From positions 1 to 20,916 of the IMG/VR virus record IMGVR_UViG_3300010334_000343: a stretch of DNA of 20,916 bases; one strand, 5' to 3'. Made by a program: the position numbers and the translations under genes. Every line of letters starts with the position of its first letter. Position 1 is the first letter of the stretch. This stretch comes from a virus. The notes below the pieces were generated by a model that was given only the letters and a program-made list of their open reading frames with translations, searched no databases and had not been told where the DNA came from. This document shows positions 2,375-20,916 of this stretch, piece by piece.

Positions 2375-2701
2375 ATGGCGAATAGAATAGAGTACACAGA
2401 CATTACTCCGGCAGAGTTCGTTACGAGGCTGAGCAGGTATTCCGAAAGCAAAGTGGTTTACTATTCAGACAACAGGATAATAACTTTTGAGACCTACAAG
2501 AGAAAGAAGTACGAGTCTTCTGCCCGCGATCAGGTTGCAGTCATAACGCCCGGCATGGAATATCGTCCAGACCTCATGTCCTTCGACAAGTACGGAGCTC
2601 CTGATTTCTGGTGGAAGATCATGGAGGCCAACAGCATGAAGGACGTCACAGAATTCAAGGCGGGCACCACGATAGTTCTTCCGGAGAACATCTATGGCTG
2701 A
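2375..2701 (+). CDS. gp53-like baseplate wedge protein (LysM-like)
   Basis: The protein has 108 residues. The ATG at 2375 is chosen because GGGGAG (2363-2368) stands six bases before it. The in-frame ATG at 2369, which overlaps the previous stop, would be too close to that site. The C-terminal half reads RPDLMSFDKYGAPDFWWKI, then MEANSMKDVTEFKAGTTIVL and a final PENIYG. The 'YG-x-P-x-WW-x-I-x-x-AN ... G-T-x-I-x-[LI]-P' pattern is characteristic of gp53/LysM-like tail proteins that help hold baseplate wedges around the hub. The gene overlaps the hub gene by eight bases, which suggests translational coupling. The N-terminal half (ITPAEFVTRLSRY) is less recognisable. Confidence 0.75.
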   Translation: MANRIEYTDITPAEFVTRLSRYSESKVVYYSDNRIITFETYKRKKYESSARDQVAVITPGMEYRPDLMSFDKYGAPDFWWKIMEANSMKDVTEFKAGTTIVLPENIYG

Positions 2702-6385: not shown

Positions 6386-6808
6386 ATGGACTTCAGAGGA
6401 GCGCCGTATCCGATAACAAAGCATCCGCGCGGGCTTTTGAGAACCCAAAGGGGGGCCAACCAGGTTAAATCAGACCTTCTGTGCCTGCTTCTTACGGAGC
6501 CGGGCGAGCGGGTCATGCTCCCCACCTTCGGAACCCCACTCAAACAGTTCTTTTTCGAGCAAAACGACTCTGTTATTGTCGAGAGAGTCAGGGAGGCGAT
6601 AGCCAATTCCATCAGGACTTGGGAGCCTCGGATTGCCGTGACCGCCATAGACGTGACGAACTCATCGTCCGACATGAGGGACTCCCTAAGCCCCTTGGAG
6701 AGCGGCGATAGTACGGGCCATGTGCTGATGATCAGGATAATGTTCACGGACTTCAACGACATTCGTAGCGTCCAAGAACTCAAGTTGGAAATACCCCTTG
6801 GAGGTTGA
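6386..6808 (+). CDS. gp25-like baseplate wedge protein
   Basis: The protein has 140 residues. The ATG at 6386 is chosen because GGGAGAGG (6371-6378) lies seven bases upstream and the frame further up only overlaps the spike gene. The protein opens with RGAPYPITKHPRGLLRTQ and carries the family core LLTEPGERVMLPTFGTPL at residues 35-52, followed by a helix containing VERVREAIANSIRTWEPRI. The 'L-T-x-x-G-E-R-x-x-x-P-x-F-G' stretch is diagnostic of the GPW/gp25 family (PF04965), a conserved wedge component that contacts the sheath and gp6-type proteins. The length is normal for the family. It ends four bases before the next gene's ribosome-binding region is complete, as is usual in a tight operon. 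Confidence 0.9.
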   Translation: MDFRGAPYPITKHPRGLLRTQRGANQVKSDLLCLLLTEPGERVMLPTFGTPLKQFFFEQNDSVIVERVREAIANSIRTWEPRIAVTAIDVTNSSSDMRDSLSPLESGDSTGHVLMIRIMFTDFNDIRSVQELKLEIPLGG

Positions 6809-6810
6809 CG

Positions 6811-8385
6811 ATGCCAGATAATTGCCCGTTTGAAGTGACGCCATTCGCCAGGTCGAACCCTGTTAAGATCGACAAGATCCTGAGCCTCAACTACACGAAC
6901 CAGGACTTCTGGTCGCTCAAGACCAGGCTGGTGGAGTTCATCAGGGAGCGCTTCGGAGACCAGGGGAGCGTGCTTCCCAACACATTCAACGACCTCGTCG
7001 AGGGCTCCATAGCGATCATGCTGATGGAGAACTGGGCGTTCATCGGCGACATGCTCTCATTCAAGATGGACCAGATGGTGAACGAGCTTTTCGTGGACAC
7101 GGTCACGGAGCCGGACAACGCCTTCAGGCTGTGCCGTCTTGTGGGCTTCAACCCCACGCCGCCCATCCCATCCACATCCATGTGGACGGCAACGCTGAAC
7201 TCCGTGCTTGATTCAGACATCGAGTTGAACACGCCGATAGCCATCGAGACGGCCACGGAGGACGGGCTACTGACCATAGAGCTATTCGCCGCCGACTCCC
7301 GCGGCAAGCCGCTGTTCGGCCAAAACATAGTCATACCGGCTGGCTCGTTCTCCAACACCTCCGTGGTGGGCGTGGAGGGGAAGACCTTCGTCGACAACTA
7401 CACGGGCACGGGCCAGACGCTCCAGAGCTACCCGACAACCAAGGATTCCGTCATCTACGATTCAATAAACGTCAGGATAGACGGGGTTCTGTGGGATAGG
7501 GTCGACTACTTCAGCGACTCCCAGCCCAGAAGAGAGTATAGAGTCGAGTTTGACTCCTCCTACAGGGCATACATCATGTTCGGCAACAACAAGGCCGGAC
7601 TCAGCCCTCCGACCGGAGCCCAGATACAGGTTGAAGGGCGTCAAGGCGGCGGCGTCGTAGGCAACATAGTCACCGGGTACGTGGAGACGCAGATTCAGGC
7701 AAGGGTGTTCGGAATAACCGGCGGCATACCCGTAACCCTTCGCAACTACACCCGCGGAGAGAACGGCTACAACGGGGACACTGTAGAGGACATAAGGAGA
7801 AAACTGCCCCTCTACCTTCGCACACAGGACAGGGCGGTGACCGGCCTCGATTACAAGACCCTGACCGACCAATTCGTCACCCCGTTCAACGGCCAGATCG
7901 GCAAGAGCACGGCCGTACTACGCAACCACGGATGCGCAGGCAATGTGGTCGACATATACATACTGGCTCGGGAAGGGTCTTCCGGCCTGGCCCGAGCCAG
8001 CGACAATCTCAAGATGGAACTGTCGGACATGCTGGAACTCAAGAAGATGGTCACGGACTATGTTTGCCTCAAGGACGGGGTGGTGCTGGAAGCCGATGTC
8101 TCCATAGAGGTCAAGCTCTCCAGAATAAACAAGAAGTTCGAGCAGGAGATAAGGACGGACATAGAGAACAAGGTCGATGAATTCTTCGCCCTTCCCAACT
8201 GGGAGTACGGCAGGGAGTTGAGAGAGGGAGACCTCGTGAAGACCCTTGCCGCGATCAAGCAAGCAGAGGGATTCGACATAGTTTTCACGACCGACGACGA
8301 GGGTAACTCTGGCGGCCTTGTGACCGCAAGGTTTTTCGAGATTGTTCGCCCAAGCCGGGTGGAAATATCATTCATGTACCAGTGA
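6811..8385 (+). CDS. Baseplate J/gp6-like wedge protein
   Basis: The protein has 524 residues. The ATG at 6811 has GGAGG (6800-6804) six bases upstream. The in-frame TTG at 6805 would abut the ribosome site and is less likely. The N-terminal part has the helical FNDLVEGSIAIMLMENWAF motif and TEPDNAFRLCRLVGFNP, typical of gp6/BaseplateJ proteins, where early segments dimerise around the hub. The BaseplateJ core is visible around residues 315-352 (GENGYNGDTVEDIRRKLPL, then TGLDYKTL). The C-terminal part has an alpha/beta fold with VVLEADVSIEVKLSRINKKF. The protein forms the ring linking wedges in contractile baseplates, and its position between gp25-like and gpI-like genes is the normal one. 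No abnormal feature was seen. Confidence 0.88.
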   Translation: MPDNCPFEVTPFARSNPVKIDKILSLNYTNQDFWSLKTRLVEFIRERFGDQGSVLPNTFNDLVEGSIAIMLMENWAFIGDMLSFKMDQMVNELFVDTVTEPDNAFRLCRLVGFNPTPPIPSTSMWTATLNSVLDSDIELNTPIAIETATEDGLLTIELFAADSRGKPLFGQNIVIPAGSFSNTSVVGVEGKTFVDNYTGTGQTLQSYPTTKDSVIYDSINVRIDGVLWDRVDYFSDSQPRREYRVEFDSSYRAYIMFGNNKAGLSPPTGAQIQVEGRQGGGVVGNIVTGYVETQIQARVFGITGGIPVTLRNYTRGENGYNGDTVEDIRRKLPLYLRTQDRAVTGLDYKTLTDQFVTPFNGQIGKSTAVLRNHGCAGNVVDIYILAREGSSGLARASDNLKMELSDMLELKKMVTDYVCLKDGVVLEADVSIEVKLSRINKKFEQEIRTDIENKVDEFFALPNWEYGRELREGDLVKTLAAIKQAEGFDIVFTTDDEGNSGGLVTARFFEIVRPSRVEISFMYQ

Positions 8386-8394
8386 GGAGCCATT

Positions 8395-11300
8395 TTGAAG
8401 ACCGTAGGGGTTGACAGGGACATATCGGTTGAGGAGCAAGTCAGGTTCCTCCTTGAAACAAAGGATGGAAGAGACTGTCTGATCACGCCCTACCGGATAG
8501 ATTCAGTGACCGTGTACTTCGTCTCAAGGGAGTTCTCGGACGTCACCGCCACACCCTACGAGATGGTCGTCGAAGACGAAAGGATCAAGAGTAAGTACGA
8601 AGAGGCTCGGGACGCGGTCTGCTCCAGGAAGAAGGACTCTGTGGCCGCCGCCACTACGGGAGATGTGACGCTCTACGGGCTCCAGACGGTTGACGGAATA
8701 GCGCTGGCGGAAGGAGACAGGGTGTTGGTCAAGGACCAGGCCAACGCATCGCAGAATGGAATATATCTGGCGTCTGCCTCCGGGTGGGCTCGGTCGGAAG
8801 ACGCCAAATCCTTCTTGTCGAAATCTTATGTTTTCGTGGAAGAGGGCATCGCGAACATCGGGAGCGGATGGTATCTGGAGTCTGGACGCATGGTCGTCGT
8901 CGGCACGACTCCGCTCATTTTCGTCAAGTTCTCCGACAATGGGTCTCCGGCCTCGCCCGATGCGTATTCAGAGACGCTGGTCTCCGAGTTGAAGAGGATG
9001 AAGTCGGAATCTGCGTCAAAGAGCGACTTCTACTACAAAAACGCCGTCGCAGTTAAGGTTTTCGGCGGCAATTCAGACTCGGAAACCGGCGAGTTGTTCC
9101 CGGCATGGTTGAATCCAGACATGGTTCCCGCTGAAGTTCGGGATAAAACCGCGGGGGACAACATACTCGCGCAAGTATACGAGGGCGACGAGCCAATGAA
9201 TGGCAAGTTCGAACTCGTGTGGGATCCGCACGGGTGTCGCGAAGGCGACTACTTCGTTTGTTGGTCGTGGAGACCCACTCTGTCTGGCGAGACCATGTCT
9301 GCCCACATGTATTTCTCTCTGGGAGGGGGCGTCGGTCTGACCTCTAGCATACCCACCCACAGGACGGATCCCAAGAAGTACGACATGCTGATGAACAGGT
9401 ACACGCCAGAGATGTTCAAGAGTTATGTGTCAGATAGTGACTTGAGTCCGCTTGTCCTCAAGGGACTCAACGAGTCCGTGGCGGCTGGCTTCACGATGAT
9501 AGAGAACCTAGCCAACCAGATAATAGACCTATTGGACTCGAACGCCACGCACGAACAACTTCTGCCCCTGCTTTCGAACATGTTCGCCCTGAAGCTGAAG
9601 TCTTCAGACTCTACGCTGTGGCGCAGGCAGATAAAGAAGGCGATATCGAACTTCAAGAGGAAGGGAACGATAGTTGGCTTGAAGGAGGCGTATGGGGACG
9701 CGGGAATGAAGCTGCTGAGACTTTCGAGGCTGTGGCAGGTGGTCTCGTCATACACGCATCAAGAGAGCTTCGTGTATGACGACTCCGCATCTTTCCAGCT
9801 TTCAAAGACTATGCGTCTTCCCGTGGACTCCAATTTCGAGTTGTGGTACCGTCCGACCGATGGCCAGTGGGAGGATGTGACGGCGTCCCACGAATCGCTT
9901 GCCGTTTTCGACGGGTCCAGCCTCGTTTGGACGGGTGAAATATCGAAGGGGGACTCGGTAAGGATCCTGTACAAGACAAACGAAATCCCCTCAACGAGGC
10001 AGGCCCTTGAGGACTACATACGAACCCTCCCGCTCATGGACAATCGCGACGAGCGAGATCAGGAGTACCCTCCCAAGAACTGGAACGTTCGCGTCATAGA
10101 GGAAGACGACCCGATGTTCGGGGTTATCATTCCGGTTAGGCACCCTCTGGCTGATCCTGTGATCTGGGGGCGTGTTAGAACCGAGTTCCCCTACAGCGAG
10201 AACGCCTACAACATGGACGAGTACAACGGGTCGAAGAGGGAAAGTCTGGACCCGTGCGACATAGACAAAAACTTCGTGGACTCTTGCGGAGGTTGCCAGG
10301 CGAGCGTTTTCAACATCGACTTGGAGATCGAGGGACTGTCGGACTCCGGCTTCACGGAGGCGATGCAGATTGCCGAGGAGTACATGCCATTCCATTCGAT
10401 GGTTCACACATACAACATCAGCGGCTCGAGGACGGAGTTCTTGGGTCCGGTCGATGAGCGCATAGAGACCTTGGTCACCGTGTCGGGTTCGGAGACCGTT
10501 ATCTCCGGCGAGGCCCAGCACATATTCAACAGGGATGTGGATGCAAGACAGATAGAGGATGTGAAGAGGGACATACTCTCCAGTTTCGAAGCGGTCGAGG
10601 CCCCGGGAGGGGGTTCGACTTGGGGCGGAGTCCTGAAGAACAGCCGCGTGTGCCTTTTCCCTTCCTCCCTTAGTTCCGAATCAGATTTGAACGACCCAAG
10701 GCAGGCCGGGCTTTCCCAAGGCTTCGGACAATACAACATCGACACAGGATCGCCCGATGATGATCCGTTCGAGAGCGGAAATCTATTGGAGATATTGGGG
10801 GCGTCAACCAGGTACCACACGATATCGTCGGTAGACCCTTCGGCCGCGGAGATATACGGCGATGTCGACCCTTCCGTGGTCGGGCCGCTTTTTGAGTATC
10901 GCATATCAAACAGGTTGGCCGACATCACAGTGAACATAACGCAGTCGAACCGGATAATATTCTCCGACGAAGACGCCGATTTCTATCTCATGGGCATAGT
11001 TTCCCAGAAAGACATCGACGACGGCGTCCAGTCAGGCACAGCATGGACTCTTCGCTTTGAGGCGTCTGAGTACAAAATACTAGACCTGCTTCCAGACGGC
11101 ACTTTGCTTCTCGAGTGGCTCTCGGTCGTGCCCGACGTTGCGGGCTGGGAGGTTTGGGCGGGGCCAACGCAGATGGCCGATGGCTTGGGGGGCGCAAAAG
11201 CCGTGCAGAATATGGGTCTGGTCGAGGTCGTATCGGCCGTTTCTGGCGGGGTGCGTTCTCTGGTGCGCGTGGGCGACTACCTGTACATGGACTGGGGGTC

Positions 11301-11916
11301 ATCCATATCTAGGCACAAGGTTCGATCCTACAAGGCCGGCACTGACGGTTTCTATATCGAGGAATACGATGGCGGCGGATCCGGCGGCGTTTCGGCCAAG
11401 GTCTACAGGCGGGCAATCGAGTCCAAGGTGGGTCAGGTTGGTTACGACGGTCTAGTGCTGGATTCGGATGCGGATCTAGAGTCCGAACTTCCGGTTTCTA
11501 ACGGGTCTTCCTCCGACCCAGACGGGGCCACGTCCAACTTTGTTCGCGAAAACTACCTCATATTTATAGGTTCGGACTACTACACTATTTCGCGAGTAGA
11601 GGGTTCCAGAGCGCTCCTTGGTGGGCGTCTGGACTCTTACACCAAGGAGGGCAAAGAGGTGGAGTTCACCGTTTACAGGTTCTTGAAGCAGGGTCTTTCG
11701 TTGCGCGAGAGGGCGGCTCCCCAAGCGCCTTCGTTTGACTTTGATTTCGTAGACAGGTCGGGGAAGGCACTGATAAAGAGTACGCAGGCTGCCGGCGGGA
11801 TGAGCCTGCTATCCTCCAGACTGAACTCGGCCAACCAAGGACAGCCCTTCGACACGGCGTCGCAGGACGAGCAGATAGAATTCACTGTTGAGTATAGAGA
11901 CGGAGAGCAGCGATGA
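8395..11916 (+). CDS. Large baseplate wedge protein with P2 gpI-like domain
   Basis: The protein has 1173 residues and starts at TTG, with GAGGAG (8384-8389) five bases upstream and no ATG nearby. Residues about 335-445 resemble tail protein I (P2 gpI): HEQLLPLLSNMFALKLKSSD, then STLWRRQIKKAISNFKRKGT and VGLKEAYGDAGM. Residues about 80-181 form a separate fibre-type module (AATTGDVTLYGLQTVDG, EGDRVLVKDQANASQNGIYL, then GTTPLIFVKFS) that many phage tail fibres carry. It appears to be inserted into the wedge N-terminal domain. The remainder to the C-terminus is beta-rich and not recognised, including an acidic, Ser-rich stretch around DNA 10650-10860. The protein probably links baseplate wedges to the fibres, in the place of T4 gp7 or P2 gpI, but it is far longer than gpI. 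Confidence 0.72.
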   Translation: MKTVGVDRDISVEEQVRFLLETKDGRDCLITPYRIDSVTVYFVSREFSDVTATPYEMVVEDERIKSKYEEARDAVCSRKKDSVAAATTGDVTLYGLQTVDGIALAEGDRVLVKDQANASQNGIYLASASGWARSEDAKSFLSKSYVFVEEGIANIGSGWYLESGRMVVVGTTPLIFVKFSDNGSPASPDAYSETLVSELKRMKSESASKSDFYYKNAVAVKVFGGNSDSETGELFPAWLNPDMVPAEVRDKTAGDNILAQVYEGDEPMNGKFELVWDPHGCREGDYFVCWSWRPTLSGETMSAHMYFSLGGGVGLTSSIPTHRTDPKKYDMLMNRYTPEMFKSYVSDSDLSPLVLKGLNESVAAGFTMIENLANQIIDLLDSNATHEQLLPLLSNMFALKLKSSDSTLWRRQIKKAISNFKRKGTIVGLKEAYGDAGMKLLRLSRLWQVVSSYTHQESFVYDDSASFQLSKTMRLPVDSNFELWYRPTDGQWEDVTASHESLAVFDGSSLVWTGEISKGDSVRILYKTNEIPSTRQALEDYIRTLPLMDNRDERDQEYPPKNWNVRVIEEDDPMFGVIIPVRHPLADPVIWGRVRTEFPYSENAYNMDEYNGSKRESLDPCDIDKNFVDSCGGCQASVFNIDLEIEGLSDSGFTEAMQIAEEYMPFHSMVHTYNISGSRTEFLGPVDERIETLVTVSGSETVISGEAQHIFNRDVDARQIEDVKRDILSSFEAVEAPGGGSTWGGVLKNSRVCLFPSSLSSESDLNDPRQAGLSQGFGQYNIDTGSPDDDPFESGNLLEILGASTRYHTISSVDPSAAEIYGDVDPSVVGPLFEYRISNRLADITVNITQSNRIIFSDEDADFYLMGIVSQKDIDDGVQSGTAWTLRFEASEYKILDLLPDGTLLLEWLSVVPDVAGWEVWAGPTQMADGLGGAKAVQNMGLVEVVSAVSGGVRSLVRVGDYLYMDWGSSISRHKVRSYKAGTDGFYIEEYDGGGSGGVSAKVYRRAIESKVGQVGYDGLVLDSDADLESELPVSNGSSSDPDGATSNFVRENYLIFIGSDYYTISRVEGSRALLGGRLDSYTKEGKEVEFTVYRFLKQGLSLRERAAPQAPSFDFDFVDRSGKALIKSTQAAGGMSLLSSRLNSANQGQPFDTASQDEQIEFTVEYRDGEQR

Positions 11917-12413: not shown

Positions 12414-12662
12414 ATGCCGAGGGAAGTTGAGTTCAGGGCGAGAGCGGGCAAGATATTCATAGACGGGGAGCCATTTGACTGGGCTCTTGACGACGATGCC
12501 ATAGACGAGGCGAACAGGCACAGTGGAACGCCTCAATTCATGCGAGCCATACACAACGACATCATGGGCCATTTCCTGAATTCTCTTTCCGAAGTGCTGG
12601 GATTTAGGCCCTCCATGAGGCAGGTCAATGAAGCCCTTGAGAGGGGGTTCATATCAAAATGA
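12414..12662 (+). CDS. Small hypothetical protein
   Basis: The protein has 82 residues. The ATG has AGGAG (12403-12407) six bases upstream, partly within the preceding stop region. It opens with a beta hairpin (EVEFRARAGKIFIDGEPF) followed by an acidic turn and helices (FMRAIHNDIMGHFLNSLSEV, then SMRQVNEALERGFI). It overlaps the start of the SET-domain gene by four bases. I do not recognise the family. Good ribosome site, tight spacing and coding-like composition support a real gene. A small adaptor or assembly factor is possible but unproven. Confidence 0.6.
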   Translation: MPREVEFRARAGKIFIDGEPFDWALDDDAIDEANRHSGTPQFMRAIHNDIMGHFLNSLSEVLGFRPSMRQVNEALERGFISK

Positions 12663-13189
12663 TCACCATAAAAGAGGAGGATGAGAGGTTTAGAATCGGA
12701 CAGTCGACCCAGCCTGACGCCGGCCGTGGCCTTTTCGCGCTGAAGGACATCGAGGCCGGCGACTTCATAGTTGTGAAGGGCGTCATGGTCGAAAAGGGTT
12801 CGCCGGCCGACGCTTGCACTTCGTACGCCGACGCCTTCAAGTTCGCCGCCGACTACGCAGACTCCTACACCGGGCACATCATACCGATGGGGTATGCCGC
12901 GATCGTCAACCACGCCAACGACCAGAAGGACCAAAACGTCGAGATAAGACACATCATGATCGCGGACAAGAGGACATGCGTCTACTACTTCATCAAACCC
13001 GTCCCCGCAGGGCAGGAGGTTTTGGGGGACTACGGCGAGGGTTGGCGGGGTCTGGACGATTGGAGCCGTACCGTCAACGGTTCCGCCGACACATCTGAGG
13101 AGGAAGAGTGGGTCTCTTTTATGGGACGCGGCCTATATAACCTGGACAGGCTGAAGAGGCCAAGGGGGGAAGATGCCGCAGATCAATAG
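12659..13189 (+). CDS. SET-domain protein (lysine methyltransferase-type)
   Basis: The protein has 176 residues. The ATG overlaps the preceding stop (ATGA), and GAGGGGG lies about 11 bases upstream. The SET motifs appear in order: GRGLFALKDIEAGDFIV (residues 22-38) as the N-terminal strand with the SAM-binding G-x-G, VNHANDQKDQNVEI (83-96) for the usual N-H-S-x-x-P-N block, and AGQEVLGDYGEGW (117-129) for the E-[EL]-[LI]-x-x-D-Y-G catalytic block with its tyrosine. No pre- or post-SET cysteine clusters are seen. Residues after about 130 form an acidic, probably disordered tail. SET enzymes transfer methyl groups from S-adenosylmethionine to lysine side chains. The substrate is unknown; virion or host proteins are both possible. 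The gene sits inside a structural operon and overlaps the fibre gene that follows by 17 bases. Confidence 0.78.
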   Translation: MITIKEEDERFRIGQSTQPDAGRGLFALKDIEAGDFIVVKGVMVEKGSPADACTSYADAFKFAADYADSYTGHIIPMGYAAIVNHANDQKDQNVEIRHIMIADKRTCVYYFIKPVPAGQEVLGDYGEGWRGLDDWSRTVNGSADTSEEEEWVSFMGRGLYNLDRLKRPRGEDAADQ

Positions 13190-14111
13190 CATACAAGAGG
13201 TTCTCGACGACATCCTGACTCGGATCGGTTTGGTCAACATAAAGGCCAACACAAACGCCGCTATGATCCGCAGTGCCGCCGGCTCTGCGGGATCCATTGA
13301 TGCCCGATTGGGAATGTCATTGAAGGCGGACGGCTCCCTGAAGACATCTGCGATCGACTCCGGCCTGCACGGCATAGGCCACCACACGGATGGCGAAGGA
13401 CCCGACGGGGTCGAGTATGTCAGGATGACCGCTTCGGAGAGGGCCAAACTAGGGTTCGTAGAGAGAGAGGCAAATAGGCTCGTGCTGTCCGTGGATGACC
13501 AATTCCCTACCATAGGCAATACGGTCACGATATTGAGCGGGACCGTGAAGCTCGAGCGCTCCCCGAGCATATTCTTCGACTTCGAGGCCCCGAACATCGT
13601 GAGGGCCCATTCGGCGTTCCCGCCCGATGTCGCCCACAGGCACCACTACGGACTAACTCCCGTCCTTAAAAGCGATTCTTCTTCGTCCAGTTCCTTGTAT
13701 TACGCCACGACTTCGATTTCGACTCCGTTCGCGGAGGGAACTTTGCGCGTGTACGTGAACGGCGTACGGCTTTCTGGCTCGTCGGTGCCCGTACCGAACA
13801 GCTCCGGCAGTTCGTTCCTGCCCACCTACATCGCCTCCGAGAGCAGTTCGGACGGAACATTTGTCCTGAACAGGTCTCTGGCGGGGTCCGACAACATACG
13901 GATCGACTTTGACGAAATGTTCGTCCCGCCGTCCTCTTCCTCGTCCTCTTCGTCCTCGTCGCCGGACTGCTCGATGTACATCGACTGTAATCCTTCCGGA
14001 GGGACGGTCATTAGCGACTGCGGGCTCCTTCCTGTCCCAGGACACACGCAGAGTTTCGACTGCGGCATCTGCGAGTGCGTCACAACGCCCATATCTAGTT
14101 CGTCGTCCTAG
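13173..14111 (+). CDS. Fibre-type virion protein with serine runs and Cys-rich end
   Basis: The protein has 312 residues. The ATG lies in the end of the SET gene behind AAGGGGGG (13162-13169). A short helical N-terminus (INSIQEVLDDILTRIGLV) is followed by SLKADGSLKTSAIDSGLHGI and YVRMTASERAKLGFVE, a pattern common in fibre and collar proteins. Around residues 175-250 a second module reads FAEGTLRVYVNGVRLSG and later NRSLAGSDNIRIDFDEMF, a beta domain seen in phage fibres. Then come ten consecutive serines, a short C-terminal region with seven cysteines (DCSMYIDCNPSGG, then DCGICEC) and a final five-serine stop end. Serine tracts probably act as flexible linkers. The Cys-rich end may be a disulfide-stabilised tip or a metal site. 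Receptor binding is plausible but not shown. Confidence 0.6.
   Translation: MPQINSIQEVLDDILTRIGLVNIKANTNAAMIRSAAGSAGSIDARLGMSLKADGSLKTSAIDSGLHGIGHHTDGEGPDGVEYVRMTASERAKLGFVEREANRLVLSVDDQFPTIGNTVTILSGTVKLERSPSIFFDFEAPNIVRAHSAFPPDVAHRHHYGLTPVLKSDSSSSSSLYYATTSISTPFAEGTLRVYVNGVRLSGSSVPVPNSSGSSFLPTYIASESSSDGTFVLNRSLAGSDNIRIDFDEMFVPPSSSSSSSSSSPDCSMYIDCNPSGGTVISDCGLLPVPGHTQSFDCGICECVTTPISSSSS
13932..13961 (+). repeat. TCN serine-codon run (10 Ser)
   Basis: Ten consecutive TCN codons (TCC, TCT and TCG mixed) encode ten serines after PP. A second run of six serines lies near 13676-13693 and one of five directly before the stop at 14109. These are candidates for length change by replication slippage in units of three bases, which would keep the frame. 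Confidence 0.85.
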
Positions 14112-14119
14112 AGGGAAAA

Positions 14120-14689
14120 ATGGCCCCCCACACAGACTTTTCCTCTTCGATCGGCTTTGTAATAATATCGCCCGAGCCAAACATAGCCAGGCTTGGCGAT
14201 ACCGTGCGGTCTATACGATATGTCTTCGGAGACAAGGCCTCAATAGTCTGTTCGGTCGCCAAGGGCGTCGGAAAAGTCCGCATTGACGAGATGAGGGGCG
14301 TGTGCTCCACGGTGGAAGGCGGAGCGACGGTCACTTCACTGATCAATCGGGGCATGAAGGCATCCGAAGGTGATGGGTGGAGAGTGCTTGTGATGGAGGG
14401 GGCGCGGATTCCCCGGGGGATCGAAAGCAGGTACAGCAGATGGATAAAGAGCGACAAGGACGTCCTGTTTCCGATTGTGGTCAGCCACAACCTGGACGGC
14501 ATGCCTCTGAAGATCATGGCCAATTTCGAGGACTGCACCCTGAACGGGATAGCGATCCACACTGGTCTGTTTCGGGAGGTTGGTAATTTCTCCGACAACC
14601 CGATTGCAATATCGAAAAGCTTTTGGGCCGTTGGCGCACTCCAGAAGGGTGCGGCCTTCAAGGCGATACTGGGCGTCAAGATAATCTAG
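14120..14689 (+). CDS. Possible degenerate GT-A glycosyltransferase-like protein
   Basis: The protein has 189 residues. The ATG follows GAGGGAAAA at 14111-14119, with GAGGG about four to five bases before it. The layout recalls a family-2-type GT-A fold: GFVIISPEPNIARLGDTVRS (strand and helix of the nucleotide-sugar pocket), then GGATVTSLINRGMKASEGDG and WRVLVMEGARIPRG at residues 87-100. In active GT2 enzymes the last block normally holds an aspartate pair (DxD). Here it reads EGA, so metal-dependent transfer is doubtful. The end (FWAVGALQKGAAFKAILGV) is not recognised. The resemblance is judged by eye and may be fold-level only. A structural role is a fair alternative. It converges with the minus-strand gene that follows, sharing a CTAG at the stops. 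Confidence 0.45.
   Translation: MAPHTDFSSSIGFVIISPEPNIARLGDTVRSIRYVFGDKASIVCSVAKGVGKVRIDEMRGVCSTVEGGATVTSLINRGMKASEGDGWRVLVMEGARIPRGIESRYSRWIKSDKDVLFPIVVSHNLDGMPLKIMANFEDCTLNGIAIHTGLFREVGNFSDNPIAISKSFWAVGALQKGAAFKAILGVKII
14686..14689. other. Shared CTAG at convergent stop codons
   Basis: The plus-strand gene ends in TAG at 14687-14689 and the minus-strand gene ends in TAG read from 14688 to 14686. The palindrome CTAG therefore closes both genes, and no room is left for an intergenic terminator. Confidence 0.95.
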
Positions 14690-15222
14690 ACGGAGAAGAA
14701 GTACCACCTCGACTTGAGATCAGCCTGCTCGGAGGAGTCGACGACCTTCAGATAGTCCATGATCTCTTCCCATGTTGAAAAGATCATTTCATGAGGTATC
14801 GTCCCGAACAGCCAGTCGGGGGCCTGGCTCTTTCCCTGCTCCACGCGAACCAGTATGGGCTTCTTCTGGCGGTTGGCCCAGAATATCTCCTCTAGCGTCC
14901 CGCACGGATGGGTGTTTATGTCCAGATTCACCACCAGGAAGTCGCTGATGTCCACCAGCCTGAGATCCGTGGTCCTGATGACCTTCATCATGGCCGCCAG
15001 TTCATCGTAGCGGCCCTCCGACTTGAGCCTCGCCTTTGTGGCGTGAGTGGCGTCGTCTTCGGCCCCCACCTCCGTGGGTTTGTCGAGGGGGTTGAAAACC
15101 ACGACCCCCATGTCCTTGAGGAATGGAGTTATTTCAGATCTCCATCCGACGCCCCTGTCTGGCACCCTGTCTATGGCCCCAGCGAGGTAAACCCTCTGGT
15201 TCTTGAGTCTATTCAAGGCCAA
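14686..15222 (-). CDS. Nucleoside 2-deoxyribosyltransferase-like protein
   Basis: The protein has 178 residues and is the only minus-strand gene. The TTG at 15222 has a strong AAGGAGGG just upstream (15233-15226). An in-frame TTG two codons later (15216) would be spaced about ten bases from it and is also possible. The N-terminus reads QRVYLAGAIDRVPDRGVGWR, the usual strand and loop that bind the base, then GVVVFNPLDKPTE, DLRLVDISDFLVVNLDIN and HPCGTLEEIFWANRQKKPIL. GTLEEIFWA matches the G-[ST]-x-x-E-[IL] active-site block of the nucleoside 2-deoxyribosyltransferase superfamily, with the catalytic glutamate at 111 or 112. Such phage proteins may cleave or exchange the base of nucleosides or nucleotides. 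The exact reaction cannot be told. Its orientation against the structural operon suggests an accessory gene, perhaps under separate timing. Confidence 0.72.
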   Translation of the reverse strand: MALNRLKNQRVYLAGAIDRVPDRGVGWRSEITPFLKDMGVVVFNPLDKPTEVGAEDDATHATKARLKSEGRYDELAAMMKVIRTTDLRLVDISDFLVVNLDINTHPCGTLEEIFWANRQKKPILVRVEQGKSQAPDWLFGTIPHEMIFSTWEEIMDYLKVVDSSEQADLKSRWYFFSV

Positions 15223-15265: not shown

Positions 15266-15931
15266 TTGTCAAGCGAGATAATAAATCAGGCTTCTGACAT
15301 GCTGTCCGAGTCTAGGGTTTCCGGGAGGCACACGTTCTACCAGCTCAAGCATTTCGTGCTGGGGAAGGAGGTGACAACCCAGGCCAAGATGTGGAAGTGT
15401 CTGCGGGAGCTCGAGGCCAGGCTCATTTCGGCCAAAGCCATGGCGTCGGGGATCGAGGAGGCCGAGGACGACGCCCGCATGCTCCAGATAAAGGCGGAGG
15501 TTTTGGAAAAAAAGAAGGCCAAAGGAAGACTACATAGGGAGTACAAGGAGATTCAGGCGCGCAAACTGGGGCGCAAGAGGAAGGGCTTGATGGACTCGAT
15601 TTCCGAGATGAAGAGGAGGCTCAATGAGACGGAGGAGGAGATGGGCTTCTTTATCGGTGCGTACCGCCAGCTGGAGGCCATAGAGCCCTTGAGGGGCCAC
15701 GACGACCCCGAGGCCAACTCCCACTACTGGGACCAGAACTTCGCCCAGGAGCTTCAACTAAGGCTGATGTTCCAGAAGCCCCTTGATTTGGAGCTGATCA
15801 GGTCGATCCTCGCTCTGGACGACGGGTCTTCGACGAGGAAGGAACTTGTCGGCATGATAGAGCAGATACAGAGGAGGGCCATTCTGGCTGGCAGGCAGGA
15901 GGCACTAGGCCAAAAAGGGGCAGAGAATTGA
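15266..15931 (+). CDS. Coiled-coil protein, function unknown
   Basis: The protein has 221 residues. It starts at TTG behind AGGAGG with nine bases spacing. There is no in-frame ATG before codon 12. A long charged helical region from about residue 40 to 130 (LRELEARLISAKAMASGIEE, EVLEKKKAKGRLHREYKEIQ, SISEMKRRLNETEEEM) should form a coiled coil. The C-terminal part contains DPEANSHYWDQNFAQELQLR and DLELIRSILALDDGS, probably a small helical domain. It has no transmembrane segment and no enzyme motif. The gene is the first of the right-hand plus-strand block and overlaps the next by four bases (TTGA). I do not recognise the family. A scaffold or chaperone for the following large fibre-type proteins is one possible role, inferred only from position. 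Confidence 0.6.
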   Translation: MSSEIINQASDMLSESRVSGRHTFYQLKHFVLGKEVTTQAKMWKCLRELEARLISAKAMASGIEEAEDDARMLQIKAEVLEKKKAKGRLHREYKEIQARKLGRKRKGLMDSISEMKRRLNETEEEMGFFIGAYRQLEAIEPLRGHDDPEANSHYWDQNFAQELQLRLMFQKPLDLELIRSILALDDGSSTRKELVGMIEQIQRRAILAGRQEALGQKGAEN

Positions 15932-16905
15932 GGAGAATATCTAGCTACGACGATGGATACGCCACGGGCGACCTGTCCTTGTTCCCATCGGCTCTGGACG
16001 ACAAGGAGAGTCTCTACGAGGTTCGTAACAACGCAGAAACGCGCTTGAGGTCGGGACTCTCTTACAACGCCCGGCAGATCATCGTGGACAGCACGGCTGG
16101 ATTCCCCGGAAAGGGTCTCGTCAGGGTCGGGCCTCCTGCGGGTCGGGCGGGCGAGGCGGAGCTGATCTACTACGGAGCCAAGACGGATTCGGCCTTCAAG
16201 GATCTGACGCGGGGTTTCTCCGGGTCGAGGCAGAACCAATGGCCTTCTGGGGGGTGGGTCACGAATGCGGTGACCGCAGAGCCGCACAACGCGATCAAGG
16301 ATGCACTGATAAACATGCAGCATCGGGTCGGACTTCGTTCGTTTCCCGAGGACGGAACTCTTAACAGGCGGCTCCGAGACATGGAGCTCCGCTATCTTTC
16401 CCCCAAGGCACTCTTCAGGGCATTCCCCAGATCCTGCAAGCCGGGGACGCCCATAAGGTTTCAAAGCCTTTGCGAGGGAGACATCATCCGCTACATGTGG
16501 GATTTCGGGGACGGCGGGACGAGCGTGGAGCAAAATCCGGTGTACTCTTACGCGACCGAGGGAACCTACACCGTTAAGTTGCACCTGGTGACTGCTTCGG
16601 GGGCGCAAGGAATATCAACCAAGTCAAACTACGTTAGCGTCTCCATGAGCGAGCAGACGCCTTTTTTCTATGCGACTCTGGTTTCCGATCGGACATATCG
16701 ATTTGTAGACCAGACCGACGGCGAAATCAAACAGAGGTTCTGGGTGTTCGACGACGGCCAGAACTACGTGGAGTCCGACCCCGACGTGCACGAACACATC
16801 CATACCTATGCGGATTCGGGCTTGTACAAGCCGTCGCTGCTGGTAGGCTTCGCCGACGAGACGATACGTAGGGTGTTTCTCAAAGAAACGCTGGGGGTGT
16901 CATGA
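15928..16905 (+). CDS. PKD-domain virion protein, paralogue 1
   Basis: The protein has 325 residues. It begins with TTG overlapping the preceding stop (TTGA), with AAGGGG seven bases upstream. Residues about 48-130 form a beta module (QIIVDSTAGFPGKGLVRVG, then EAELIYYGAKTDSAFKDLTR) ending in EPHNAIKDALINMQHRVG. After a short helix (RRLRDMELRYLSPKALF) a PKD-type Ig fold follows: YMWDFGDGGTSVEQNPVYSY, then ATEGTYTVKLHLVT (residues 189-225). A second, weaker Ig fold has RFWVFDDGQNYVESDPDVHE and HTYADSGLYKPSLLVGF. PKD folds are commonly used in surface and adhesion proteins as spacers. The N-terminal module recurs in the next two genes. A virion decoration or fibre protein is the likely role. It has no signal peptide. 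Confidence 0.7.
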   Translation: MRRISSYDDGYATGDLSLFPSALDDKESLYEVRNNAETRLRSGLSYNARQIIVDSTAGFPGKGLVRVGPPAGRAGEAELIYYGAKTDSAFKDLTRGFSGSRQNQWPSGGWVTNAVTAEPHNAIKDALINMQHRVGLRSFPEDGTLNRRLRDMELRYLSPKALFRAFPRSCKPGTPIRFQSLCEGDIIRYMWDFGDGGTSVEQNPVYSYATEGTYTVKLHLVTASGAQGISTKSNYVSVSMSEQTPFFYATLVSDRTYRFVDQTDGEIKQRFWVFDDGQNYVESDPDVHEHIHTYADSGLYKPSLLVGFADETIRRVFLKETLGVS

Positions 16906-19193
16906 CCATACCAGTGGCGAGCCTCTTCCCGGAAAACTACGACAGCGACCTGAACCTGTTTTTGGTTCGGGACGCGCTTCGCGTACGCCTTCTTTATGAC
17001 TACAACCCCGGCGACGCAAGCGTGATCGTGGAGGCCGATGCGGAAGTTATGGGGCGCTTCCCGCCTACGGGCATAATAACACTCACGGAGCAGTGCAGCG
17101 ACATAGACCTTCGCGCCCTGAGCTTCCACTATTCGTCCAAGACATCGACGAGCTTCGAGGGACTCGAGATACTTCCCGAGTTCGCCGACCTGGACTCGGT
17201 GAAGCCGAAGAGGATAACGAACGTCACCATGAACGTGGTCGCGATGCACCACAACAACCTCAAGGACTCGCTGGTCGCGATCCAGGGAAACCTGGGAACC
17301 AAGTACGAAACTGACAGGGACACAATAACCGGCAGGATAAAATACTTGGAGAGGCTCGCGTTCCAACCAAAGGCGTGGTTCTCTGCCGACACACGGCTGG
17401 GCCTGGTTCCGCTATCCGTCACCTTCAAGAATGAAAGCTTCCGTCTTGGCCCCGGGAAAGTAACACAGACATGGGACTTCGGGGACGGCGATCCCGTGAT
17501 TATCGAAACGAGCAACGAGGATGAGTATTCCAACTACGAAGCCGTTCTACAGGGCGTGCAGATCAAGGGTCAATATCTGACCAAGGTGTACTACGAGCCG
17601 GGTGTTTACACCATATCCCTTCTCGTGGAGAACGAGTGGGGCGAAAGCAACGTGGTCTTCCAGGACATGATAACGGCGAAGACGGAGTGCCCGGAGGAGG
17701 CGAACATAACCATCAACGCCAGATCGACGCAGTCCTACATCGACGGCGACCCGATACTTGGCACGCGTCCGAAAATACGGTCTGTAGCCAACAGCTTCGT
17801 GGACTTCGAGGTTCCGCATGGTGCGGATCCGTCTAGGAATGGATATTCGTACGCAGGCGAGTTGTTGGAGATGGGGAGCAGTTCCAGCATGTTCGGAAGC
17901 CCCGTAGATCCCGTCGTGGAGTACACGTGGAATTTGGGAGATGACCTGCCCCACCCGAACTCCTCGTCCGCGAGGGCCTCCTACAGGGTGGGGGGCGTAT
18001 ACGACATAGTTCTCCGAGTGGATACGAGTTTCGGGTCGTATCGGATAACCAAGTACGAGGGGTCGGTCGACATAGTCGAGTCGAGGAACCTCTGGCTCTT
18101 CAAGTTTGATCCAGAGTCGGAGGACTCCGGCGGGGGCGGCACAGTGAAGGCCTGCGAGTTCGGACTACACAGCGAGACCTTCAAGCTCCTCGGCAACCAG
18201 ACGATATCTATCGACAGGGACAAGAGGTTTCTGGACTCCTACAAAGACCCGGCTTTTGACTCGGCAACCCTCGCGAAGGCGAGGGCCGAGTTCGGACGGA
18301 ATGTCGAATTGGCACCCTACGGAAGTCTGAGTTCGGGCTTCAGAGGGAACTCAATTATGTTCTGGGCCAAGGGCGGAGCCTCGCAGGACTCCATGCAGAT
18401 AGGAGTGGCCAAGTACAACGCTTTTGACGACCATTACGAGTCATTCAGCCCAATTTCGGGCAGGCCTTGGAACTGGGTTGCTCTCAACTCCCCGGGGAAG
18501 ACTTACTTCCTCTTCGGCAGCTCAGACCAGTCGCTTCCAAACACCAATGCTTCCACGGCAACTCGAACCGACTATGACCTCGCGTCGCATTCCGTTACGG
18601 CCTCTTCCTCTTTGGACTCATCTTCGTTTGGCAATGGCGCCGAAGAGCTGCTGGAGCATCCGTCGTACTACGAGGAGGGCATTCCCACGAATGGTTACTT
18701 CGCAACCTACAGGTCGGCATGGAAGGATTCGGTGGGGTACATCATCAGAAACTCGGCAGTCAACGATTTCTTCAGGATGTCGAGCTTCTACAAGACCGTA
18801 GGCAGCGTGTCTTCGCCCTTCAATACGATCACGAAACTCCCCGACATGGCTGGTACGGCCAAGACTGAAGGGGAACTGGTGTCGATGTCGAACGGCATTT
18901 TCTTCTTCAACAACTCCGGCGAGGTCAGCGCGTGGAACGACACTACCATGACTTGGGAGGTTGGACGAACAGGATCTGCCACCCTGACTTTCAGGTCTGT
19001 TCAGGACACCTATGCGTCCGGCTTTGACGACCGCTCGAACACCCTGCTCGCGGCTTCTGACGGCGACAGGGTTGCCTACCTAAGTTACGACTACAGCGAA
19101 AAAGCCTTCGTCAAGTTCAACGGTACGGACCTGACCTTCTCCAAGTTGCGCCAGAGGCCCGTCGGCACTCAATTCAACATGGGGGTGTACTGA
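16902..19193 (+). CDS. PKD-domain virion protein, paralogue 2, with C-terminal beta domain
   Basis: The protein has 763 residues. The ATG overlaps the preceding stop (ATGA). The N-terminus parallels the previous gene: a beta module (about 38-115), then VVAMHHNNLKDSLVAIQGNL (112-131) and RIKYLERLAFQPKAWFSA. PKD-type folds follow at about 158-260 (TQTWDFGDGDPVIIE, later YYEPGVYTISLLVENEWG) and 295-395 (VEYTWNLGDDLPH, then YRVGGVYDIVLRVD). Residues about 485-763 are beta-rich, with ELVSMSNGIFFFNNSGEV and SAWNDTTMTWEVG near the end. This resembles Kelch or other beta-propeller blades, but the blade count was not established. The last ~100 residues (LLAASDGDRVAYLSYD) fit that view. The protein may be a large fibre or adhesin. 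Confidence 0.68.
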   Translation: MTIPVASLFPENYDSDLNLFLVRDALRVRLLYDYNPGDASVIVEADAEVMGRFPPTGIITLTEQCSDIDLRALSFHYSSKTSTSFEGLEILPEFADLDSVKPKRITNVTMNVVAMHHNNLKDSLVAIQGNLGTKYETDRDTITGRIKYLERLAFQPKAWFSADTRLGLVPLSVTFKNESFRLGPGKVTQTWDFGDGDPVIIETSNEDEYSNYEAVLQGVQIKGQYLTKVYYEPGVYTISLLVENEWGESNVVFQDMITAKTECPEEANITINARSTQSYIDGDPILGTRPKIRSVANSFVDFEVPHGADPSRNGYSYAGELLEMGSSSSMFGSPVDPVVEYTWNLGDDLPHPNSSSARASYRVGGVYDIVLRVDTSFGSYRITKYEGSVDIVESRNLWLFKFDPESEDSGGGGTVKACEFGLHSETFKLLGNQTISIDRDKRFLDSYKDPAFDSATLAKARAEFGRNVELAPYGSLSSGFRGNSIMFWAKGGASQDSMQIGVAKYNAFDDHYESFSPISGRPWNWVALNSPGKTYFLFGSSDQSLPNTNASTATRTDYDLASHSVTASSSLDSSSFGNGAEELLEHPSYYEEGIPTNGYFATYRSAWKDSVGYIIRNSAVNDFFRMSSFYKTVGSVSSPFNTITKLPDMAGTAKTEGELVSMSNGIFFFNNSGEVSAWNDTTMTWEVGRTGSATLTFRSVQDTYASGFDDRSNTLLAASDGDRVAYLSYDYSEKAFVKFNGTDLTFSKLRQRPVGTQFNMGVY

Positions 19194-20916
19194 TGGCCGT
19201 CGGATATCCACCATCCCCAGCATTTCCGATATCTCTCGATTCGGATCGGACCCTGTATCTGGTTTACAACACCAGCGAGGCCAAGACAATTTATGACAAC
19301 GCCCCTTGGCAGGAGGAGATAGAGATAGTTCCGGTCGGTGCCGACATGCCAGAGATATGGGCGGACAATGGATTCGCGAATATATCCGGCGAGTTGTTCT
19401 ATTACGACTCCGTAGAGAAGGACGAAAACGACAGGGTCTTCAAGCTCAAGCGTTGCGCCAGAAATGTTGGGGGTAAACAGACGAGGTTCAATCCCGCCGG
19501 CACCTGGGTCCGGGGATTTGTCATAGCAGAACACCATAATCAGCTGGTCGATGCGACGATAGCGACGGAGGCTTACATATTCGACTTGGAGAACGAACTT
19601 TCGCTCCTGGAGAGCGAGACGCCCTGCCTAGACGACGCCCCATGCGTGGATGTCCATATAGATACAGAGGTGGTTAACCCGAACCCTCCCAACTGCTCGG
19701 GCACCACGATCAGCTACAACGTGACCATCAACGGGACATTCAACAGTTTCGTCCTTGATTTTGGCGACGGACAGTCTACGAGCTCCAGCCTTTCCGGAGT
19801 TCACACATACAGTCCGGGGGTCGATATCGACCCTGTTGTCACCGTGTTCAGCGACTCTTGCACAGTCGTGCAGACCCCGATTGACCGCGACAAGGACAGA
19901 GTTCCCGATAGTCCGCCCCCCGAAACACCGACTCTAATCGTGCCGGATCCTCCTCCGTTCCCCACCATTTCCATACCGACTCTCAACCCGCCTCCTACAG
20001 TCGTGGAACTTCCGCCGATTGTGTTTCCGTGCGTCAATCTGACCCCGAGCATAAGCATTCCGAGCATAATCAGCATAGTCCCCCCCGAGATATCCATAAC
20101 CCCGTTCAGCTTCACCCCGTTGAGCGTAAGTTTTGGTCCGGCCCCCTTGGTGCCGACGAGTTTCACCTTTGGTCCAGCGCCTACTGTGCCTCCGGTTTCG
20201 TTCACCTTCGGCCCCGCACCGATAATAACTCCGGCATCGTTCATATTCGGGCCGATGTCGTTCACATTCGGGCCCGCACCCAACATACCGCCAGTGTCAT
20301 TCACCTTCGGCCCGGCTCCATTGATACCGCCCGCATCGTTCAACTTCGGGCCGGCTCCATTGATACCGCCCGCGTCGTTCAGCTTCGGGCCGGCTCCATT
20401 GATACCGCCCGCGTCGTTCACCTTCGGGCCGGCTCCATTGATACCGCCCGTGTCATTTAATTTTGGCCCGGCTCCGAAGATCGATCCCGCGTCGTTCACC
20501 TTCGGCCCGGCTCCGAAGATCGATCCCGCGTCGTTCACCTTCGGCCCGGCTCCGAAGATCGATCCCGCGTCGTTCACCTTCGGACCAGCACCGAAGGTCG
20601 GTGGTTCATTCACCTTCGGACCAGCGCCGAAGGTCGGTGGTTCATTCACCTTCGGACCAGCGCCGAAGGTCGGTGGTTCATTCACCTTCGGACCAGCGCC
20701 GAAGATCAGCAACGCGTCGTTCACCTTCGGCCCGGCTCCGAAGATCGATCCCGCGTCGTTCACCTTCGGACCAGCACCGAAGGTCGGTGGTTCGTTCACC
20801 TTCGGACCAGCGCCGAAGGTCGGTGGTTCGTTCACCTTCGGACCAGCGCCGAAGGTCGGTGGTTCGTTCACCTTCGGACCAGCGCCGAAGGTCGGTGGTT
20901 CGTTCACCTTCGGACC
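19193..20916 (+). CDS. PKD and FxFG-repeat protein, paralogue 3, 3' end outside window
   Basis: The ATG at 19193 shares its first base with the last base of the preceding TGA. The frame stays open through the last base, so at least 574 residues are encoded and the stop lies outside. Residues about 40-130 resemble the module of the two preceding proteins and end in VIAEHHNQLVDATIATEAYI. A single PKD-like fold follows (NSFVLDFGDGQSTSSSLSGV, residues 185-204, then HTYSPG). From about 236 the chain is proline-rich (PDSPPPETPTLIVPDPPPF). From residue 311 it consists of S-F-x-F-G-P-A-P units of 12-13 residues, 22 in view. The repeats should be disordered or extended rather than globular. A fibre or stalk is the likely role. 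An open minus-strand frame over the same bases (19801-20907) is a by-product of the repeat. Confidence 0.75.
   Translation, partial: MAVGYPPSPAFPISLDSDRTLYLVYNTSEAKTIYDNAPWQEEIEIVPVGADMPEIWADNGFANISGELFYYDSVEKDENDRVFKLKRCARNVGGKQTRFNPAGTWVRGFVIAEHHNQLVDATIATEAYIFDLENELSLLESETPCLDDAPCVDVHIDTEVVNPNPPNCSGTTISYNVTINGTFNSFVLDFGDGQSTSSSLSGVHTYSPGVDIDPVVTVFSDSCTVVQTPIDRDKDRVPDSPPPETPTLIVPDPPPFPTISIPTLNPPPTVVELPPIVFPCVNLTPSISIPSIISIVPPEISITPFSFTPLSVSFGPAPLVPTSFTFGPAPTVPPVSFTFGPAPIITPASFIFGPMSFTFGPAPNIPPVSFTFGPAPLIPPASFNFGPAPLIPPASFSFGPAPLIPPASFTFGPAPLIPPVSFNFGPAPKIDPASFTFGPAPKIDPASFTFGPAPKIDPASFTFGPAPKVGGSFTFGPAPKVGGSFTFGPAPKVGGSFTFGPAPKISNASFTFGPAPKIDPASFTFGPAPKVGGSFTFGPAPKVGGSFTFGPAPKVGGSFTFGPAPKVGGSFTFG
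20123..20916 (+). repeat. 36/39-bp tandem repeat coding for S-F-x-F-G-P units
   Basis: From 20123 to the window end 22 units are read, the last incomplete. The first units vary (SVSFGPAPLVPT, SFIFGPM, SFTFGPAPNIPPV). The middle ones are 13 residues with LIPPA or KIDPA ends. Most of the later ones are 12 residues (SFTFGPAPKVGG). The units nearest the window end are almost base-identical, as expected if the array grew recently at this side. It continues outside the window. Confidence 0.92.

Follow-up and report, generated by a model that had tools for sequence, protein, structure and literature searches.

Does the FxFG-rich repeat at the end of this phage contig form a cohesive chain comparable to that of the FG nucleoporins, or does it build the shaft of a fibre? 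The contig, an entire IMG/VR record of 20,916 b (referred to below as the window), stops inside the repeat, within a fibre-type gene (19193..20914, + strand) that was recognised from its ORF, a coding-frame test and its orthologs. The ATG start codon of this ORF overlaps the stop codon of the preceding gene, and its 574 codons run to the contig end without encountering a stop, leaving the 3′ end of the gene open. TRF detected tandem repeats at both contig ends, from which we conclude that the fibre gene was truncated by assembly. At the other end (1-417), the ORF 2-1825, which is cut by the contig start, begins with about four 36-residue tandem repeats (GEMGPPKPGLLDKAKGKAMDLYGKGKEKLFGQKMAE).

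Since other frames across the repeat array are long too, we tested the coding frame. Counted by codon position (1, 2 and 3), the differences that separate the window from L006, its nearest ortholog, number 29, 38 and 131 within the repeat and 41, 31 and 163 before it; they are mostly synonymous in both parts. Moreover, in each of the six sequences compared (the truncated gene of the window and five full-length genes), the frame of the fibre-type ORF was the only one free of stops over its whole length. An artefact or a wrong frame was ruled out by this third-position bias and by the complete genes present in other contigs.

The array itself (20123..20914, + strand) comprises 21 SxxFGP units, all of the form S[FV]xFGP, followed by a 22nd cut by the contig end. 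The initial annotation had reported 22 units of the type S-F-[TNSI]-F-G-P-A-P; the repeats are real and begin exactly at 20123, but the 22nd is incomplete, the first reads SVSFGPAP instead of opening with SF, and one is the short unit SFIFGPM. The full SxxFGPAP pattern occurs in twenty units of the window. The even spacing described earlier holds, with a period of 12 or 13 residues to which the 7-residue SFIFGPM is the sole exception, and TRF returned periods of 39 bp and 36 bp. We counted 21 FxFG motifs in the 574 residues, compared to a mean of 0.49 and a maximum of 5 in 10,000 shuffles of the protein. The spacers are short, rich in Pro, Gly and Ala, and strictly periodic. The repeat in the window is real, coding and unusual.

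Upstream of the array, the gene codes for a conserved N-terminal domain that probably mediates attachment to the baseplate (19193..19640, + strand; aligned in all orthologs), a PKD-like domain with an LDFGDGQS motif (19685..19880, + strand) and a Pro-rich lead-in to the shaft, also present in the aligned orthologs (19881..20122, + strand); the boundaries of the two domains are approximate. The PKD-like domain matches Pfam PKD_4 weakly (E = 0.22 in the window, 6.8e-4 in the LR756511 ortholog), and its Foldseek match to the PKD domain of ColH had a probability of 0.99 but an E-value of 0.52. Close relatives are encoded on six contigs. Full-length genes (L006, L002/L003, which are identical in sequence, L005, L007, L015 and L019) supplied the whole protein, including the C-terminal domain; the initial annotation had proposed to obtain the full gene from the DNA downstream. 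In these orthologs the N-terminal domain, PKD-like domain, Pro-rich lead-in, shaft and C-terminal domain follow one another in this order; the last is conserved, ends with CFALVPCxKK or similar, and is absent from the window contig. An extra Gly-rich domain lies in the N-terminal region (about residues 78-156) of L015 (8001-10547), L002, L005 and L007; this insert is found in neither the window nor L006, and in L015 it bears PHROG baseplate-wedge matches. Mean pairwise identity amounts to 53% for the N domain and 48% for the C domain, which diverge in step (r = 0.77, 24 complete proteins), and shaft length ranges from approximately 169 to 1603 residues (approximate boundaries). Freedom to change therefore lies in the shaft.

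The genes preceding the fibre gene place it in a baseplate region, in agreement with its earlier description as a phage fibre-type structural protein. They code for a baseplate wedge-like protein (2375..2701, + strand; PHROG 7145, E = 9e-12), two baseplate wedge proteins (6395..6808, + strand, PHROG 261, E = 5e-19, which we take to be of the gp25 type; and 6805..8385, + strand, PHROG 219, E = 1.2e-20, presumably of the gp6/J type) and a large tail protein with a Tail_P2_I region (8395..11916, + strand; Pfam PF09684, 22.9 bits for a cut-off of 20.6). Two PKD proteins follow. PKD protein 1 (15928..16905, + strand; Pfam PKD_4, E = 9.3e-21; PHROG 2885, baseplate wedge subunit, E = 1.2e-6) is a paralog of the N-terminal and PKD region of the fibre, with which it aligns collinearly (E = 3e-9), suggesting that the two proteins probably attach alike. 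PKD protein 2 (16902..19193, + strand; Pfam PKD_4, E = 5.6e-11), directly upstream of the fibre gene, resembles the fibre along a short N-terminal stretch only. PKD protein 1 is encoded upstream of the fibre in 72 of 72 loci and PKD protein 2 adjoins it in 68 of 73; gene order is also kept downstream, the conserved cassette consisting of the two PKD genes, the fibre gene and a gene weakly matching a Maf glycosyltransferase domain. Also located amid the tail genes is a SET-domain gene (12659-13189; Pfam PF00856, E = 1.3e-9). The product of 13173-14111 contains long runs of Ser and matched no family. A minus-strand gene (14686-15222) has a weak, below cut-off match to nucleoside 2-deoxyribosyltransferase; at the corresponding place LR756511 carries a minus-strand gene (L008:1783-2352).

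An alignment-based search recovered 167 relatives; among the 80 of these that were listed, several lie on contigs of 298-533 kb. LR756511.1, an unannotated metagenomic sequence of a 595-kb uncultured phage, codes for a relative with shaft units SFDCISFCxPP in the same gene order. The family belongs to huge phages, and the phage of the window is probably one of them. LR756511 was the only match when an annotated relative was sought in a phage collection, and it is unmentioned in the literature searched; no published account of the fibre family was found by title or abstract, and a search for a cultured relative found none. A genome collection yielded one matching 25-kb contig, from a Neisseriaceae MAG, which is too little to name a host.

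Across the family the ends persist and the repeat does not. At least three FxFG motifs occur in 14 of 73 distinct sequences, and the remaining 59 contain none; the whole shaft of some relatives lacks any FG. At the same position are found the patterns IxFGP, FxWGxPP, ISFCxPP and IxITPV, with repeat types such as IPTSITFGPAPT, IPTNITITPVT, ISFCKPPSF, SITGPEYSPF and PPVNI, and the closest relatives switch from FGPAP repeats to SFxWGxPPKxxG repeats farther along the shaft. The dominant period of most shafts lies at 10-13 residues; periods of 5 and 8 occur as well. When mapped on an N-terminal-domain tree, a quick one with many weak forks, the FxFG form clusters, chiefly within a single sublineage (4 changes, compared to 13 after shuffling).

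What is conserved at the level of the unit is an alternation rather than a residue. When units are anchored on their Gly-Pro, Phe occupies position −3 relative to Gly in 95% of those of the window, and FxFG-free relatives have Ile there in 80% of 607 GP-anchored units; while the residue varies from Phe to Ile, Val or Trp, every group has a hydrophobic one at this position in 89-100% of units. Position −2 is mostly polar in relatives with and without FxFG, and position −1, mostly Phe with Trp possible, is hydrophobic because the anchor pattern requires it. This Φ-polar-Φ pattern suggests a short strand buried on one side and not free FG motifs. Compared to shuffles, Φ-x-Φ alternation is raised in many members, with z-scores of 3.2 in the window, 6.2 in L006 and 13.7 in L085, with a family median of 2.6; it is weak in part of the family (minimum z of −1.5). 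The FG motif, which the initial annotation had treated as the meaningful part of the unit, finds no support in that role, since Ile, Trp or Val can stand where the window has Phe and most relatives lack FxFG altogether.

We then considered predicted structures. With an alignment of 11 sequences, AF2 modelled L015 at a mean pLDDT of 46; values were roughly 40-80 in the N-terminal and PKD region, and every FGPAP repeat received a short strand, at about 45. With a cleaner alignment of 39 rows, the model of L006 reached a pLDDT of about 67-82 over the first ~150 residues of the shaft and contained a 3-6-residue strand in most repeats, with a bridge near Ile/Val; its C-terminal domain stayed near 50. 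Since AF2 is reported to fold near-perfect repeats into confident yet unrealistic β-solenoids (PMC11795689), the shaft model counts as support and not as proof. The initial annotation had named a regular β-fold as the finding that would speak against a disordered chain; the predicted strand per repeat leans towards such a fold but, given the bias of AF2 for repeats, not decisively. Foldseek searches with both models gave no match at E ≤ 0.001, and the top matches of the L015 model, the PKD match excepted, were set aside as low-TM alignments. No solved homolog was found by sequence in the PDB for the repeat, the full ortholog or the C-terminal profile, and the shaft and C-terminus matched no PHROG, Pfam or PDB entry. 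The remark of the initial annotation that no tail fibre built this way was known agrees with the lack of any family profile or PDB entry matching the repeat. The triple β-spiral was rejected as a model of the shaft, as its period is not the 12-13 residues of the window, in which no 15-mer fits its consensus.

We propose, with a probability of roughly 0.65, that the gene codes for a baseplate-anchored fibre (or strut) with a Pro-turn β-repeat shaft, carried by a phage, probably a huge one, with a T4/P2-type baseplate. Gene context and shared domains point to the fibre assignment; the β-structure is suggested by the conservation pattern and by a predictor whose bias is known. Anchoring at the baseplate, beside the two PKD proteins, would be the role of the N-terminal and PKD-like domains. 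Each 12-13-residue unit would form one short β-strand (S-Φ-x-Φ) between Pro/Gly turns, and the Phe, Trp or Ile side chains would be buried in a continuous hydrophobic core of the shaft, possibly built by oligomerisation. Gain or loss of units would alter shaft length and leave both ends untouched. The conserved C-terminal domain would cap the shaft and could have a conserved task such as chain registration or docking of another protein.

The alternative that survives best, which we consider possible but unlikely, is that the shaft has no regular fold and is a Pro/Gly-rich tether (disordered, elastic or extended) that links a folded N-terminal anchor to a folded C-terminal domain, its aromatic residues self-associating weakly. 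The composition of the window shaft (34% Pro plus Gly, 24% Pro) would likewise suit a disordered elastic chain, shafts vary freely in length and type, the FGPAP repeats of the first AF2 model reached a pLDDT of only about 45, and the AF2 bias could account for the better second model (PMC11795689). However, a tether of this kind fits poorly with the strict unit length and with hydrophobic positions that are kept despite residue changes. Both AF2 models show periodic strands, and Gly-poor, Ile-rich versions at the same place, such as the shaft of L085 (27% Ile), argue for a fold.

It is improbable that the product is instead another structural protein of the virion or cell surface, such as a whisker, a head decoration or an internal tail protein, that shares a common attachment domain. 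The matches of this domain do include PHROGs labelled head and packaging, but the gene follows the baseplate genes and stands beside the two PKD proteins in nearly all loci, and the combination of a long repeat shaft and a distal domain resembles the architecture of a fibre. The FG-nucleoporin-like cohesive chain, in which 21 evenly spaced FxFG motifs would drive gel formation or stickiness, is the least credible reading and very unlikely, as 59 of 73 relatives keep the gene position and both ends without FxFG, with Ile, Trp or Val in place of Phe, the spacers are short and Pro-rich, and no Pfam nucleoporin profile matched at E ≤ 10. Since relatives keep both ends but swap the Phe-rich repeat, the likeness to the nuclear pore is superficial, and the FG motif is unlikely to be the basis of any self-association. 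The caution of the initial annotation that the likeness was of motif level only was well placed; its expectation of a chain working like a disordered FG nucleoporin is not supported, given the strictly periodic spacers and a motif that is not conserved.

Returning to the β-repeat fibre, the downstream gene of the cassette, which is known from relatives and in the phage of the window would fall past the contig end, codes for an MptE/Maf-like protein. It lies 3′ of the fibre gene in 38 of 38 complete loci, at most 150 b away in 36 (e.g., L030:9597-10454). Of the 26 downstream proteins compared, 12 matched PF01973, the central domain of the Maf flagellin glycosyltransferase (PMC11339370), at E ≤ 0.01, with 6.9e-7 as the lowest value; bit scores for two of these proteins (29.6 and 23.1) are under the curated cut-off of 34.6. 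A structure search with the downstream gene product gave nothing useful. Because this neighbour is constant and Ser plus Thr make up a median of 18% of the shafts, glycosylation of the fibre by the Maf-like protein is a reasonable idea and may occur. Farther downstream of the cassette lies an actin-like gene (L006:15336-16361, L002:15698-16717, L015:13081-15222). In L006 its product matches Pfam Volactin (PF25216, E = 1.4e-62), whose name is that of a haloarchaeal actin; in L015 the copy has roughly double the length and is apparently interrupted by an intein.

A bolder form of the proposal, which we hold to be doubtful, is that the shaft is a fast-changing modular β-fibre of undescribed fold, in which FxFGPAP, FxWGTPP, ISFCxPP, IPTxITITPV and PPVNI units are interchangeable, and that the Maf-like protein glycosylates its Ser and Thr residues. 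If so, repeat turnover would change the length and surface coating of the fibre with a constant distal domain. Many phage fibres vary at the tip; in this family conservation is about equal at the two ends, and what varies is the shaft, in its sequence and in the length and number of its units. Little has been described of the attachment gear of very large uncultured phages, in which the family occurs. The many natural repeat variants at one position of one protein could serve as a useful test set on the encoding of a fibrous shaft by sequence, and the constant, possible glycosyltransferase neighbour makes fibre glycosylation directly testable.

Compared to known systems, the relation to the Maf flagellin glycosyltransferases is a weak domain match (PF01973) in the gene downstream of the fibre in relatives. 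With FG nucleoporins of the FxFG type the window protein has in common a regularly repeated motif; unlike them, it is the product of a phage gene in a baseplate cluster with no nucleoporin profile match, its FxFG is not kept among orthologs, and its short Pro/Ala/Gly spacers impose a fixed period of 12-13 residues. The triple β-spiral shafts of the adenovirus fibre and reovirus σ1 offer an analogy in their alternating hydrophobic residues and Pro/Gly turns, but their unit has 15 positions (a-o), with hydrophobic residues at c, e, g, k and m and Pro or Gly at j (PMC3150272), whereas units in the fibre family mostly span 10-13 residues. Similarly, the pentameric β-bracelet of Orsay virus δ resembles the predicted shaft, by analogy only, in its short strands, alternating hydrophobics and short turns, but is built of 5-residue strands and 3-residue loops (PMC7565637) instead of units of 10-13 residues with Pro turns. 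The long and short tail fibres of T4 share with the family a baseplate-adjacent gene, a long repetitive shaft and a separate C-terminal domain, and the N-terminal domain held in common with a neighbouring baseplate-type protein extends the likeness to baseplate-attached fibres. In contrast to T4 fibres, this family varies in the shaft, and its C-terminal domain shows almost the same degree of conservation as its N-terminal one.
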